Below are positions 2,869 to 39,853 of a stretch of 50,511 bases of DNA, piece after piece (position 1 is the stretch's first letter; every line of letters begins with the position of its first letter). Below the pieces are notes generated by a model. The model did not search any database. It saw nothing but the letters and a program-made list of their open reading frames with translations, and had not been told where the DNA came from. The stretch covers positions 1 to 50,511 of the forward strand of contig JANXCH010000020.1 of the NCBI GenBank assembly GCA_025060295.1, in the 5' to 3' direction. The stretch comes from Dehalococcoidia bacterium. Its GTDB lineage: Bacteria > Chloroflexota > Dehalococcoidia > Lucifugimonadales > HRBIN23. The translations under genes were made by a program, and so were the position numbers.

Positions 2869-4824
<1,956 letters not shown>

Positions 4825-4901
4825 CCTGACCCCTCCTGGCCCTGAAAAAGTGTGTTCTCCCTCAAGGGTAGCGCGGAGAGCGCGCAGGCGCAACCGCCGG
4901 C

Positions 4902-28197: not shown

Positions 28198-29820
28198 CTA
28201 CCCGAACAGGGCATCCCCGTCTTGGGCCGACAACGCCCGGGACGCCACGGCCTCGTAAAAGGCGGGGCCGTAGGGGCGCACCCGCACCAACACGGGTACG
28301 GGCACGGCTTCCCCGAAGATGAGGGCCTGCTGTTTCGCCTCCATAGAGGCCAGCACCGCTTTCAGCTCCCGCCCCCCGGGCGTCCGCTCCACCACGGCGT
28401 CCAAGTCCTGCTCGTCGTCCAGTTTGCACACGATGCGGGTGCCCAATTGACTGCGCACCTCGGGGTCTATCTGGCTAGGGCGCTGATCTATCACCAGAAG
28501 GGTAACATAATACTTGCGCATCTCCCGGGCGATGGTGCCGAAGGTGGTCAGGCGGGCTACCGAGGGGGCTAGGAACTTATGAGCCTCCTCAATGACGATC
28601 AGCAGGGGTTTGGGCTTTTTGGCCTGATCCGTCTGTGCCTCCTCACTTTGTTGCACATACCGCTCGTGGATACGACGGGTGAGGTAGTTGGCCACGAGCA
28701 CATAGGCGGTCAGGTCATCCCGGTAGCGCCCGAACTCCAGCACCACCGTCATCCCGCGGGCTAGAGTGTGCAGAATGGTCTGCACCGACGAGACCTCTTC
28801 GTCCTTGTCGGTGAGGAAGGGGTAACGCTGGATGGGCCGTAGGTGTCGCCAGAGGGCGTCCATGGTGCTGGCCGAGGCAGCGATGGCTTCGCGCAGAGCC
28901 TTCCACGCCTCAGCGTGGGCGCGCCGCGCACAGAAAGTGTCCAGCCACCCCTGGCCCAGGTGATCGCGCAGGGCGAATACCGTCTCCACCTGCACATCGG
29001 TGAGGTTCAAAGTGGCCTGCAGAAGGGCGATGTCCTCTGGCTCCAGCGCGGTGCGGGGAATGTGCACCACGTGGTCGGGGGTAACACCCCGTCGCCGTGT
29101 CCACTCCTCGTCTAAGGTGAACAGGGCTACCTTGGAGGGGAACAACTGCTTCAAGCCCTTCACAGTATGCCCCTCCTCACTGCGGGCCTGCCAGCCGTAG
29201 TCGTTGTGCATGTCAAACACCAGAATCCCCGCTGTGCCAGTCTGCAGGATGCCCGCCAGCAGGATGCGGGCAAGAAACGACTTGCCCGACCCCGTCTTGC
29301 CAAAGATGCCGTTGCTCCGCATCACGAAAAGGGGCAGGTTGAGGCAGACCTTAGCGTCTAGGTCCAGGGGGTTACCCACCCAGAAATGCTGGTCATCTTC
29401 CGTGCCGTAGATAGCGGCCACATCGGCTGGGGTGGCCAGGTGGACGGGGGCGAAATGGCCGGGGATACTCCGCGCCGGTTGCACTGTGGAGGAGGAGGTG
29501 CCCACCAAGGGCAGGGTAACGCTTGGGCGCAGGGTGAGGACTGCGTAAGCGACGCTTCCCCGCGCCGCCTGGGCCAGTAAGGATGACCCCTTGTCCACCA
29601 GCAAGGGCAGGGAGGGGTCGCTGGCCTTCAGTTCAATGTTGGTAACTACGCCCACAAAACGATGGGTTTCGCCCACCACGGTGGCCAAAATGCCCGCCTT
29701 CACCTCCTCGGGCGAGACGGCCGGGTCCAGTTTCACCGCCAAGCCCTCGGCCAGGGAGCCCCCGATCACCTGCCCCAAGTAGCGCCCGGCGTGTTCCGGC
29801 AGATGCGGGCGTCCGATCAT
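28198..29820 (-). CDS. herA: HerA-type DNA translocase/helicase ATPase
   Basis: HerA is a hexameric FtsK-like DNA pump that works with the NurA nuclease in DNA-end resection. The 540-residue protein has an N-terminal HAS-barrel-like beta region (about 10-110), Walker A GKTGSGKS (174-181), DMHNDYG, Walker B LLIVIEEAH (406-413) and the C-terminal VIDQRPSQIDPEVRSQLGTR segment. It is the last gene of a minus-strand operon selB-nurA-HAS protein-herA and overlaps the HAS gene by four bases. Confidence 0.9.
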   Translation of the reverse strand: MIGRPHLPEHAGRYLGQVIGGSLAEGLAVKLDPAVSPEEVKAGILATVVGETHRFVGVVTNIELKASDPSLPLLVDKGSSLLAQAARGSVAYAVLTLRPSVTLPLVGTSSSTVQPARSIPGHFAPVHLATPADVAAIYGTEDDQHFWVGNPLDLDAKVCLNLPLFVMRSNGIFGKTGSGKSFLARILLAGILQTGTAGILVFDMHNDYGWQARSEEGHTVKGLKQLFPSKVALFTLDEEWTRRRGVTPDHVVHIPRTALEPEDIALLQATLNLTDVQVETVFALRDHLGQGWLDTFCARRAHAEAWKALREAIAASASTMDALWRHLRPIQRYPFLTDKDEEVSSVQTILHTLARGMTVVLEFGRYRDDLTAYVLVANYLTRRIHERYVQQSEEAQTDQAKKPKPLLIVIEEAHKFLAPSVARLTTFGTIAREMRKYYVTLLVIDQRPSQIDPEVRSQLGTRIVCKLDDEQDLDAVVERTPGGRELKAVLASMEAKQQALIFGEAVPVPVLVRVRPYGPAFYEAVASRALSAQDGDALFG

Positions 29821-30407
29821 AGGGCGAGCCTCCGCAGGATGGCGTGCAGACGTGGGGCATCGCGCGACAACTCTATCGCCAAGGCATACCCCGCCCGTCG
29901 CAGGAAGGCCTCACGTCCTTCGGGGCTGATGGCCGCCGATGCCCGCAAAAAAGCTGCTAACGCTTCATCCGCCTCCACCGTCCCCGGGGCCAGGAGCAGG
30001 TGCAGGAAGGACAGATCTTGTAGGAAGGTCTGGACCACCGCAGGGCGCACACTGTAGACAAAGGCGTGCAGCCGGGGGGGCAAAGGGGGTAGCCCCGGGC
30101 GCAGGGCGTCGCCCTCCTGATAGCCCACTACACGGCTCTCAAAATGTGTGGTCAGCAAACGCTCCCAATGGGGGTTCTCCTGAAAGAGGACCTCCTCATC
30201 GTGGGCATCGGCACCTCGGGCCACCACGACCCGCCCCGGATCCAGGGGGCCGGAGGTTACGGACACCACCACACCATAGACCAAAGGTTGCCCTGCACAC
30301 ACCAGGGTCCCCAATGGTGGGGCCTGGTGAAGACGGTAGCACTGGGTGGTAAAGGAGGCGGTGGCCGTCGCTACCACCTCACCGATGCGTTCCCCTCGGA
30401 TCTCCAC
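29817..30407 (-). CDS. HAS-barrel-like protein between nurA and herA, unknown function
   Basis: The 196-residue protein begins with a strand-rich segment (GEVVATATASFTTQCYRLHQ, PPLGTLVCAGQPLVYGVVVS) that resembles the HAS-barrel domain at the N-terminus of HerA-type ATPases. The C-terminal half (about 100-196) is helical, without motifs I recognise. It overlaps herA by four bases and begins 9 bases after nurA, so it is made with both. By known HerA biology, HAS barrels dock NurA, so an adaptor or clamp role is a reasonable inference and not shown. Confidence 0.75.
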   Translation of the reverse strand: MEIRGERIGEVVATATASFTTQCYRLHQAPPLGTLVCAGQPLVYGVVVSVTSGPLDPGRVVVARGADAHDEEVLFQENPHWERLLTTHFESRVVGYQEGDALRPGLPPLPPRLHAFVYSVRPAVVQTFLQDLSFLHLLLAPGTVEADEALAAFLRASAAISPEGREAFLRRAGYALAIELSRDAPRLHAILRRLAL

Positions 30408-30416
30408 GCTCTCCCC

Positions 30417-31628
30417 CTACAGGCTGCGCAGGCGCTTGGAGCGCTGTTTCTCGGAGGTATACACAGGCAGATGGCGCTGGGCCAAACTCTCCTCTACCAG
30501 CAGGCGAAAGGCCTCCCTATCGGCCGAGGATATCACCGCTTGCTCGTGGGCCTCTTGAAGGACGAGGGGATATCCGTCTCCGCGGCGCACCTGCTCCAGG
30601 AGGGAGGCGTGAAGCAAGCCGACGAGCATTGGCTGGCGGGCGCACCAGGCGGGCATCTCCACCCGCACCACTTCCGGGCCAGCGTGTAGGTAAAAGAAAT
30701 AGATAGCCTGGTTGGCTCCATACTCCTCACGCACCAGCACGGAGAGGGAGCGGAACAGGCCCGAGCGCTGGCCTGGCTCCAGCAATCGGCGGAATAAATC
30801 GCGGTCGGTAAAACCCCGCGCCACTGCACACGGACAGGTCGGTTCCCTCTCCGGTGCAACCAGGGAGGGGCATTCCCCCGGTGGCGAGGTGCACAAGGCC
30901 AAGCGCAGCGTGTTGATGACCTCGGCGCTGTTAGGGAGGCTGATATAGCCCCCCACTGCCAGGGGGAAGCGTCCCGCCTGGAGGCGTAGAGTCTCCAGCC
31001 CCTGCAGGAACACGGCGCGCACAAACCGCTGGCGCACCACCTCCGGCCATTGGCCCCCCTCTGGTGCCCACAGCACCAGAGAGCCATCCACCAAGCCCAC
31101 GGTGGGGTAGGGTGGAGTGCATCGCTGCACCAGGGACGCTAAGGCCTGCACCTCCAACCCAGAGCGGTAGAGGGTCACCAGTGCCCCCTCTACCACAATG
31201 GTCTTGCGCGTGGCGATGTCGTAGAGGTGGAGGTCTGCGGAGTCGGCAAACAGGTGGGGGGTGGATTCCAACAGGGGAGGCTCTTCGGCACCATAGGTGA
31301 TGGCCACCCGCCCGATGTTGATGAGATAGCAACGAAGGGGAAGGTGGCGGTTGAGGTCTATGTGGGAGCCGTCGGTGGCCAAGGCACGCCAGGGATAGGG
31401 AAGGGATGGCGGGTCATAGGCCGATGGCAAAGGGTCTAGCGGCTCGGCGGGCAGGAACGGGAGACGGCGGGGGCTCTCCTGCGCAGCCCGCCGGAGGGCC
31501 TCAAGGGGCAGCGTGCGGGCAAAGGCGGCGAGGGCGTCCAGACGGGCCATATACTCCGCTAACCCCTGGCGCAGGCGTTCGGCCACGGCTTCCAGTTGGC
31601 GCATGGTGGCAGGCAAATCCAGGCTCAT
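30417..31628 (-). CDS. nurA: NurA-type 5'-3' nuclease
   Basis: NurA is a Mn-dependent 5'-3' exonuclease and endonuclease that partners HerA. The 403-residue protein has an N-terminal helical region and the first catalytic motif ATDGSHID (84-91, D86). The second acidic motif is GLVDGSLVLW (D181), and a C-terminal PLVLQEAHEQAVISSADREA segment lies where NurA proteins carry their last acidic and histidine residues. Its ATG overlaps the selB stop (ATGA), so it is translationally coupled to selB and co-expressed with the HAS protein and HerA. Confidence 0.85.
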   Translation of the reverse strand: MSLDLPATMRQLEAVAERLRQGLAEYMARLDALAAFARTLPLEALRRAAQESPRRLPFLPAEPLDPLPSAYDPPSLPYPWRALATDGSHIDLNRHLPLRCYLINIGRVAITYGAEEPPLLESTPHLFADSADLHLYDIATRKTIVVEGALVTLYRSGLEVQALASLVQRCTPPYPTVGLVDGSLVLWAPEGGQWPEVVRQRFVRAVFLQGLETLRLQAGRFPLAVGGYISLPNSAEVINTLRLALCTSPPGECPSLVAPEREPTCPCAVARGFTDRDLFRRLLEPGQRSGLFRSLSVLVREEYGANQAIYFFYLHAGPEVVRVEMPAWCARQPMLVGLLHASLLEQVRRGDGYPLVLQEAHEQAVISSADREAFRLLVEESLAQRHLPVYTSEKQRSKRLRSL

Positions 31629-33490
31629 GGTCCCCCCACCAGCACCCGCTCGTCCCCAACCCGACGGGTGATGCGCTTCTGATCAAGGTATTCCGTGAGA
31701 GCTAGGGCGTACTTACGAGAGGTGCCGAACATATCCCGCACCTGGGCAACAGTGATGCTCCCGTGCTGGCGCAGGTAAGCCACGATGCGCTGTTGCATCT
31801 CCTGATAGGCGCGGGCAGAGAACACCACCCCCTCCGCCACTTTTACCACCTTTCCCTCCTCGGCCAGGAAGGCCAGCACCTCAGCGTCGAGGCTCGGAGC
31901 AGGTGGGGCAAAGGGGGAGGCCTCCAAGGCTTGGAGGAAGGCGGTGGCTTCGGCCTCCTGAACAGGGGAAAGACGGGGTGTGTGACTGGCCAAGCGCACG
32001 AGGGCACCTACCTCTGACAGGATCCCCTCCCGCACCAGGGCAGACAGGACGGCACTATAGGGGCCCGCGTCCAGCCCCAAGCGGGCACGCAGATCCTCCC
32101 GAGGCATGCCCTTGCGCAGGGGGTACTGGGTATGGAAGGTCTGCAAGATCTCCACGACCCGCCGGCGCAGGTTGTCCCATCCCTCACGGCCGATGAACCA
32201 CTCACCCGGTGCCGAGGAGGCGGTCAGTACCAGCACCTCCCCCCGCGCCTGCAAATTCTCCAGGGCTGTGGCCACTTGGTCCAGGGAAAGGGTAGCCTGT
32301 TGGGCGAGGGTGTGGCGCTCCTGGGGAACCGGCCCCGCCAGCAGGGAGCGGACAACCTCCTCTGGGGAGGCTCTCAGGAGAAGGGCGAGGCGTTGCAGGG
32401 TTGGGGCGTGGCGGCGCCGATGGCGGGGCGGGTGGGCATCCAGGACAATACCCCCACCCAAAGTGTGCTGGGAGGAGCGGACAATGAAGACGTCTCCCCG
32501 CACAACTGGCAGGGGGGATTCCAGGCGAATTTGCGCCCATCCGCTGGCCCCGGCCTCCAAAGTGTCGGCCTCCAGCAGGCGTAAACGCGCTAGGACTTCG
32601 GCTGTGCCCGTGTGGAAAGTGACGCCCATGTTGTGGCGCAAAGGGTGAGGTGCCCACCGGGCCGAGCGGAGGTGCACATCCACTAGGGATGTGGGCGTGA
32701 GCCACCCGGGTAGGGTGAGCACCTCCCCTCGGAAGATTTCGTGGTGTTCCGCACCCGTGAGGTTCACAGCGGCCCGACTCCCCGGCGGAATGGACTCCAC
32801 CCGCTGGCGATGGCGATGGAGACCACGGATGCGCACCCGCCGCTGCAGGAGCACCAGTTCCATCTCCATCCCCACCATTAGGGAGCCGTCCAGAAGGGTG
32901 CCCGTAACAACGGTGCCAAAGCCAGGCATCACAAAGGCGCGGTCAATGGGCAAGCGGGGACGCCCGTGGTCGGGGCGGGGAGGCGTGGCATCCAGAAGAC
33001 GATCCAAGGTGGCTTTCAAGTCGTCCAGCCCTTGGCCGGTCACCGAGGAGACGCTCACGATGGGGGCATCCTCCAACACGGTGCCCTGCAGGGTCTTCTG
33101 GACCTCCTCCTGGACCAACGCCAACCAGTCGGGTTCCACGAGGTCGGCCTTGGTCAGCACCACCACCCCCCGCTTCACCTGAAGCAGGTCTAAGATGGCC
33201 ACGTGCTCCCGCGTTTGGGGCATCACACCTTCGTCGGCGGCCACCACAAGCATCACCAGGTCTATACCCCCCACCCCGGCCAACATGTTGCGGATGAACC
33301 GCTCATGGCCCGGCACATCCACAATGCTTACCTCGCGCCCCGAGGGGAGACGAAGCCAGGCGAAGCCCAAGTCAATGGTCATCTCCCGTTCTTTCTCCTC
33401 CCGGAGACGGTCGGGATCTATGCCCGTCAGAGCCTTGACCAGGGTGGACTTGCCGTGGTCCACGTGGCCAGCGGTGCCAAGGACGAACAT
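31625..33490 (-). CDS. selB: Selenocysteine-specific elongation factor SelB
   Basis: SelB delivers selenocysteyl-tRNA to UGA codons marked by a SECIS hairpin. The 621-residue protein starts [21 protein letters not shown]. It has [47 protein letters not shown]-Tu-like domains II and III ([14 protein letters not shown]), and a C-terminal half of tandem winged-helix domains that binds SECIS RNA. ATG 33490 is chosen over 33568 because it begins the canonical GTPase. selA, selD and tRNA-Sec are not in this window. A matching in-frame UGA gene lies at 38678-39853. Confidence 0.95.
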
Positions 33491-33591
33491 GGCCGTACCC
33501 GAACAGGTGTTCCCTACAAAGGATAGCATATCGCCCCACCTTGACGGCAAGATACGCCTCTGCCACACTAGAGCGGAGGAGGCAGGAGCAG

Positions 33592-38663: not shown

Positions 38664-38677
38664 CATAAGGAGGTGCG

Positions 38678-39853
38678 ATGGACGCTCGGCGTGCAGTGGC
38701 CGACCTGAAGGAGGAGATAGTCTCCCTGCGGCGCGACCTGCATATGCACCCCGAAACGGCCTTCACCGAGGAGCGCACGGCAGCGCTCATAGCGCGGCGT
38801 CTGCGTGGCTTGGGCTACACGGTGCGGGAGAAGGTGGGGAGAACGGGTGTGGTGGCCCTGTTGGAGACAGGGGAGCCTGGCCCCACCCTGGCCATCCGCG
38901 CCGATATAGATGCCCTCCCCATTCAGGAGGTCCCCGGGCGTCCCTACGGCTCCCGTGTGGCGGGCAAGATGCACGCCTGAGGCCACGACGGGCACACGGC
39001 GGTCGCCGTGGCGGTGGCCACCATCCTGGCGCGGAACACACAAGCCCTACGGGGGCGTCTGCTGTTCGTCTTCCAGCCGGCGGAGGAGATTATGCAGGGG
39101 GCACGAGCCATGCTGGAGGATGGGGCTTTCAAGGATCCGCGCCCCGATTGGGTCATCGGCTTCCACGTGGACAACACCGCCCCGGCCGGACGGGTGGGCG
39201 TGCGGGCGGGCACCGTCTGGGCGGCAGCCGACCAACTGCGTCTCACCTTCAAAGGGCGCAGTGCCCACGGTGCCATGCCCCACCTGTCGGTGGATGCCAT
39301 CACCATCACCGCCTTTGCCCTTTCGGCCATCCAGAACATCGTGGCGCGGGAGGTCATCCCCACCCAGCCCGCCGTGGTTACCTTCGGGACGATTCACGGG
39401 GGCACAGCCTTCAACATCGTGGCGGACAAGGTGGAACTGACGGGCACCGTGCGCACCTTTGACGAGCGCCTGCGCTCCTTCATCCTCGAGCGCATAGAAA
39501 CCACCGCCAAAGGGGTCGCCACTGCCCTGCGGGGCGAGGCGGTGGTGGAGCATCTCAACGGGTGTCCCGCAGTATACAACGACGCCGGGGTAACTGCCGT
39601 GGTGCGGCGCGCCGCTGTAGAAACAGTCGGCCCTGAGCGGGTCGTGGAGCCAGACCTGACCACCACCTCCGATGATATGGCCCTCTTTCTCCAAGAGGTG
39701 CCGGGGTGCTACTTCACGGTGGGGACCCACAACCCCTCCAAAGGGGCCACGGGTGCCCACCATAGCCCCGAGTTTGACATCGACGAGGACGCCCTCCCCG
39801 TCGCCGCCGAAATTATGGTGCGCACAGCGTTGGCCTATTTGGGTAAGCGCTAG
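38678..39853 (+). CDS. M20-family metallo-amidohydrolase with predicted selenocysteine (in-frame TGA)
   Basis: The frame encodes 391 residues if TGA at 38978-38980 is decoded as Sec101. M20D amidohydrolases cleave N-acyl or amino-acid conjugates with a two-metal site. Visible motifs are RRDLHMHPE, IRADIDALPI, KMHA-TGA-GHDGHTA, FQPAEE (E136 catalytic, E137 ligand), GFHVD (H163) and AHHSPEFDIDEDAL. In this family the TGA position is normally a metal-binding cysteine in MHACGHDGHTA. AAGGAGGTGCG precedes the ATG. Both sides of the TGA are in one frame, uninterrupted and conserved, a SECIS-like hairpin follows, and selB is 5 kb away. Alternatives are a Cys-to-TGA mutation, a sequencing error, or two fragments. 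Selenocysteine is the best reading. Confidence 0.85.
38978..39019 (+). promoter_or_regulatory. Predicted bacterial SECIS element with its UGA codon
   Basis: The TGA (38978-38980) is followed at once by GGCCAC (38981-38986), which pairs with GTGGCC (39014-39019). Inside, CACGGC (38995-39000) pairs with GCCGTG (39005-39010), closing a GGTC tetraloop at 39001-39004. The apical loop begins 20 bases after the TGA. E. coli fdhF also places GGUC in its SECIS loop at a similar distance. The bulged U of the fdhF element is not obvious. Confidence 0.7.

Follow-up and report, generated by a model that had tools for sequence, protein, structure and literature searches.

The gene at 38678-39853 of the window (the whole stretch of 50,511 nucleotides analysed here) is interrupted by a single TGA within an otherwise open frame, which raises the question of whether this triplet specifies selenocysteine (Sec) in a metallohydrolase or marks a damaged gene. 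Translation with TGA read as U gave a single open protein of 391 residues, whose sole TGA is codon 101, in the context KMHA-U-GHDGHTA, and whose frame ends with TAG at 39853 with no other lesion. The protein scores far above the TIGR01891 cut-off (354.9 against 153.75 bits) and also matches PF01546 and PF07687, the M20 and dimerisation domains. GC3 is 0.80 on the 5' side of the TGA and 0.81 on the 3' side, and identity to the Cys homologues 3' of the TGA is not below that of Cys-Cys pairs (58.3% to L012, for example). The open translation and the profile score confirm what the initial annotation had described, one TGA at the Cys of MHACGHDGHTA in a frame that is otherwise intact; the strong ribosome-binding site that it placed before the start codon is also there, and this gene shows no random decay, a feature that it had named as counter-evidence if seen in close relatives. 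As argued below, this is very probably the selenoprotein form of the M20D / N-acyl-amino-acid hydrolase family, in which a hairpin-directed Sec replaces the metal-bridging Cys. The features on which this reading is based are listed in the Table.

Table. Positions in the window of the M20D gene, its predicted functional sites and selB
Feature	Position	Strand	Details
M20D amidohydrolase gene	38678..39853	+	391 codons, putative Sec at codon 101, TAG end; TIGR01891 354.9 bits
Shine-Dalgarno AAGGAGGT	38667..38674	+	judged by eye; strong
In-frame TGA, Sec candidate	38978..38980	+	Cys column of MHACGHDGHTA; aligned to Cys of 1ysj, 4ewt, 1xmb and 6slf
SECIS-like stem-loop directly 3' of UGA	38981..39019	+	-23.8 kcal/mol over 42 nt
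Upper minihelix CACGGC-GGUC-GCCGUG	38995..39010	+	apical loop GGUC 39001-39004, +21 from UGA
His103 (CGH), predicted metal ligand	38984..38986	+	M20D family knowledge and alignment
Glu136-Glu137 (QPAEE), predicted general base and metal ligand	39083..39088	+	M20D family knowledge and alignment
His163, predicted metal ligand	39164..39166	+	M20D family knowledge and alignment
His361-His362 (AHHSPEF), predicted C-terminal metal ligand site	39758..39763	+	M20D family knowledge and alignment
selB, Sec-specific elongation factor	31625..33568	-	343 bits, with matches to both the N- and the C-terminal part of the profile

Analysis of the genome that carries the gene (1.61 Mb, 95.7% complete) revealed a tRNA-Sec with anticodon UCA together with SelA, SelB and SelD. 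The selB gene lies in the same window, as had been noted before, and is adjoined by genes for a HerA-like helicase and a NurA nuclease (28198-31628, minus strand). The selD gene (L069, G000:C23:54384-55304) is itself UGA-coded (the TGA occupies the established Sec position, CAG*AAK), indicating that the genome encodes at least one further, conventional selenoprotein. The initial annotation had regarded the absence of selA, selD or tRNA-Sec as an argument against Sec, and all three are present.

The recurrence of the TGA was explored by scanning approximately 85,000 species genomes with a degenerate nucleotide pattern encoding [MVL]H[AS]-TGA-GHDxH, which gave 12 matches. Ten of these are true M20D genes, distributed among Planctomycetota (three), Methylomirabilota (two) and Chloroflexota, Poribacteria, Armatimonadota, Myxococcota and Clostridia (one each), and all ten come from metagenome-assembled genomes; the remaining two (L043 and L044) are unrelated sequence, in genomes without SelA and SelB. 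SelA scored above its cut-off in all ten UGA-M20D genomes. SelB did so in nine and is represented by a fragment in the remaining one; SelD passed its cut-off in eight, while the UCA tRNA-Sec was found in nine (10 of 11 when our genome is counted). Given that the share of bacteria able to decode Sec is about 21.5% (PMC5029168), ten of ten would be expected by chance with a probability of only about 2e-7. The initial annotation had proposed looking for a TGA at the same column in other Sec-decoding genomes, and the answer, ten genomes in seven phyla, bears it out. On this comparison, the same Cys/Sec swap appears to have taken place in at least seven bacterial phyla. Two of the features by which a selenoprotein is recognised were found in this comparison: a UGA in frame at a column otherwise conserved as Cys, and UGA homologues with conserved flanking sequence in several organisms.

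Most of the other genomes with a UGA-M20D gene likewise have a UGA-coded selD. One of them, G060 (the genome of L042), has SelA, SelB and the UGA-coded SelD, and no tRNA-Sec was found in this bin, which is probably incomplete. Two of the UGA genes show additional damage. L045, from Poribacteria, has an extra in-frame TAG around 2606-2608, at the conserved Gln of DALPIQE, due to an assembly error or to early decay; L048, from Myxococcota, misses the N-terminal LRRDLHxHPE block in frame (around 4700-4830, minus strand) through a deletion, a frameshift or an assembly error. An exact motif scan of viral contigs gave no match.

A third Methylomirabilota species also has UGA at the M20D Cys column. 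Among the three species dN/dS is 0.16-0.20 after the UGA and 0.17-0.28 before it, with no other stop, and these values indicate that the part beyond the UGA is translated and used, at least in the Methylomirabilota clade. The UGA genes are scattered over several separate parts of a tree built from 91 M20D proteins, and the UGA rows need nine changes, at least five of which are forced by well supported branches. The Cys/Sec exchange was therefore repeated, whether by gain of Sec, by return to Cys or by both. One single change behind all UGA forms is unsupported by this tree, in which gains are not separable from repeated reversions.

Directly after the UGA, our gene has a stem-loop with a G in its small apical loop, the arrangement that the bSECIS criterion describes; the SECIS loop of E. 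coli fdhF is GGUCU. Of the 12 UGA genes, 8 have a hairpin with a GGUC loop on at least five stem pairs after the UGA; among the Cys homologues, 1 of 106 has one after the corresponding codon (Fisher p 6e-9, the sequences being related and not independent). The UGA gene of Armatimonadota forms CACCGC-GGUC-GCGGUG at the same distance as our hairpin, with one compensated pair. No convincing hairpin was seen after the UGA of the Clostridia gene (L051), and an Rfam search at our own gene returned no known element. When tested against a synonymous-codon null our hairpin is not significant (P 0.58), since the AVAVAVA codons of a GC-rich gene fold into hairpins easily; this null is weak gene by gene, and the hairpin argument is consequently based on how rarely such hairpins occur in actual Cys homologues. 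Additionally, two Cys genes of the Poribacteria phylum, L154 and L155, carry a hairpin just after the Cys codon (GCCATCGGCCTGATGGC in L154) that is close to the GCCATCGGTCTGATGGC of the UGA genes, and it is possible, from this resemblance, that it is a relic of a Sec-to-Cys reversion. The machinery, the recurrence of the TGA column and the hairpin after the UGA all support the selenoprotein reading of this M20 amidohydrolase that the initial annotation had put forward.

It is unlikely that our gene is instead a recent nonsense pseudogene, or contains an assembly error in its Cys codon, and has no connection with the genuine Sec forms of other genomes, even though its close relatives offer some ground for this. 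An M20D gene occurs in 68 of 250 genomes of its order, and among those checked (a set that leaves out G1126, at 39% identity) the UGA at the Cys column is unmatched outside our genome. The closest homologue, with 60% identity, has Cys at this column, and our hairpin alone fails to beat the synonymous-codon null. A search of a same-genus genome found no close copy of the gene. TGA counts for G1149 (L159) and G531 (L116) were discarded, as they lie away from the Cys column, which reads TGC in both; some Cys relatives in the order also decode Sec, such as G013 and G021, which have SelA and SelD. A pseudogene or an error, however, is at odds with the lack of any other lesion, with an identity to Cys homologues after the UGA as high as in Cys-Cys pairs, with a genome that decodes Sec and has a Sec SelD, and with a hairpin that shares its loop and distance, with one compensated base pair, with that of the Armatimonadota UGA gene. 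Moreover, a chance TGA exactly on the Cys column is improbable, because TGA recurs at the same column in ten further M20D genes, each in a genome that decodes Sec.

We regard as very unlikely that the UGA is read as another residue, such as Cys or Trp, or that it acts as a regulatory stop yielding a fragment of 100 residues: UGA is generally known as a leaky stop, but the column is Cys in all other homologues compared, SelA and SelB occur in the genome of every UGA gene, and a product of 100 residues would end before the other metal ligands. That sequencing errors in metagenome bins produced the entire UGA-M20D set, as the origin of all ten matches in such bins and the extra damage in L045 and L048 might suggest, is hardly credible given the perfect co-occurrence with SelA, the absence of SelA and SelB from both chance-match genomes, the UGA kept in three species with dN/dS of at most 0.20 after it, and the enrichment of the hairpin relative to Cys homologues.

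The Cys/His/Glu/His/His ligand columns of M20D are all kept in our protein, except that Cys is replaced by the putative Sec. From family knowledge and the alignment, we take the MHACGHD cysteine to be the bridging cysteine of the M20D aminoacylase CsAga. In that enzyme the cysteine bridges two zinc ions (PMC11511702), and Sec would accordingly be a ligand shared by both metals in a hydrolase that is not a redox enzyme; the ligand roles in the Table were assigned from M20D family knowledge and the same study. In the proposed mechanism, SelB and tRNA-Sec would decode UGA 101 as selenocysteine, directed by the hairpin with the GGUC loop that starts directly after the UGA, and the Sec would occupy the place of the Cys that bridges the two active-site metal ions in Cys homologues. 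His103, Glu137, His163 and His361/362 are the predicted other ligands of the metal pair. As judged from the aligned residues, Sec at codon 101 most likely bridges the two metals, which would activate a water molecule for the hydrolysis of an amide bond. We infer the actual insertion of Sec, the Se-metal coordination and the amide hydrolysis. Selenolates are softer than thiolates, and selenols are stronger acids than thiols; the exchange could alter the metal preference of the site or its resistance to irreversible oxidation. The gene neighbours of the UGA genes revealed no shared partner and no hint of the substrate.

Redox enzymes make up most of the selenoproteins known so far, and redox-active cysteines are regarded as the evolutionary source of bacterial Sec (PMC1794560). 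We consider it likely that Sec bridges the metals of a dinuclear site here, in an enzyme whose chemistry is purely hydrolytic, and that the exchange arose (or reverted) several times across phyla, so that selection can favour Sec for non-redox metal-site chemistry. If so, the use of Sec would extend to hydrolysis through a dinuclear metallohydrolase, and a clean Cys/Sec pair, repeated in nature, would be available for testing what selenium contributes at a metal site. Annotation would truncate genes of this kind at the UGA, and the UGA-M20D set draws attention to them as a class.

The initial annotation knew of no established M20 selenoprotein family, and this agrees with a prokaryotic inventory of 2026, whose 119 selenoprotein families and subfamilies include no M20 or amidohydrolase family (PMC13188914), and with our literature searches, which found no M20 selenoprotein, although other literature or database annotations could still contain one. 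Our protein resembles the M20D enzymes YxeP (1ysj, 249 bits), ILL2 (1xmb), CsAga (6slf) and HipO in fold family, domain order, MHACGHD motif and ligand residues; the four best solved M20D relatives all have Cys, whereas our gene has UGA followed by the SECIS-like hairpin. The YgeY family (NF009555) belongs to the M20 superfamily as well and is linked to selenium by gene context, but our protein reaches only 36 bits on NF009555, against a cut-off of 321. We know of no Sec in the YgeY family. The Sec form of SelD is UGA-coded in the same genome as the M20D gene and differs from it in having an unrelated fold and a catalytic Sec in a flexible loop, outside any metal pair. FdhA (Mo/W) and the NiFeSe hydrogenase (Ni) are bacterial selenoproteins in which Sec is placed directly on the active-site metal (PMC13188914), as suggested for our enzyme; these two are redox enzymes, however, whereas ours would be a hydrolase in which Sec bridges two metal ions.
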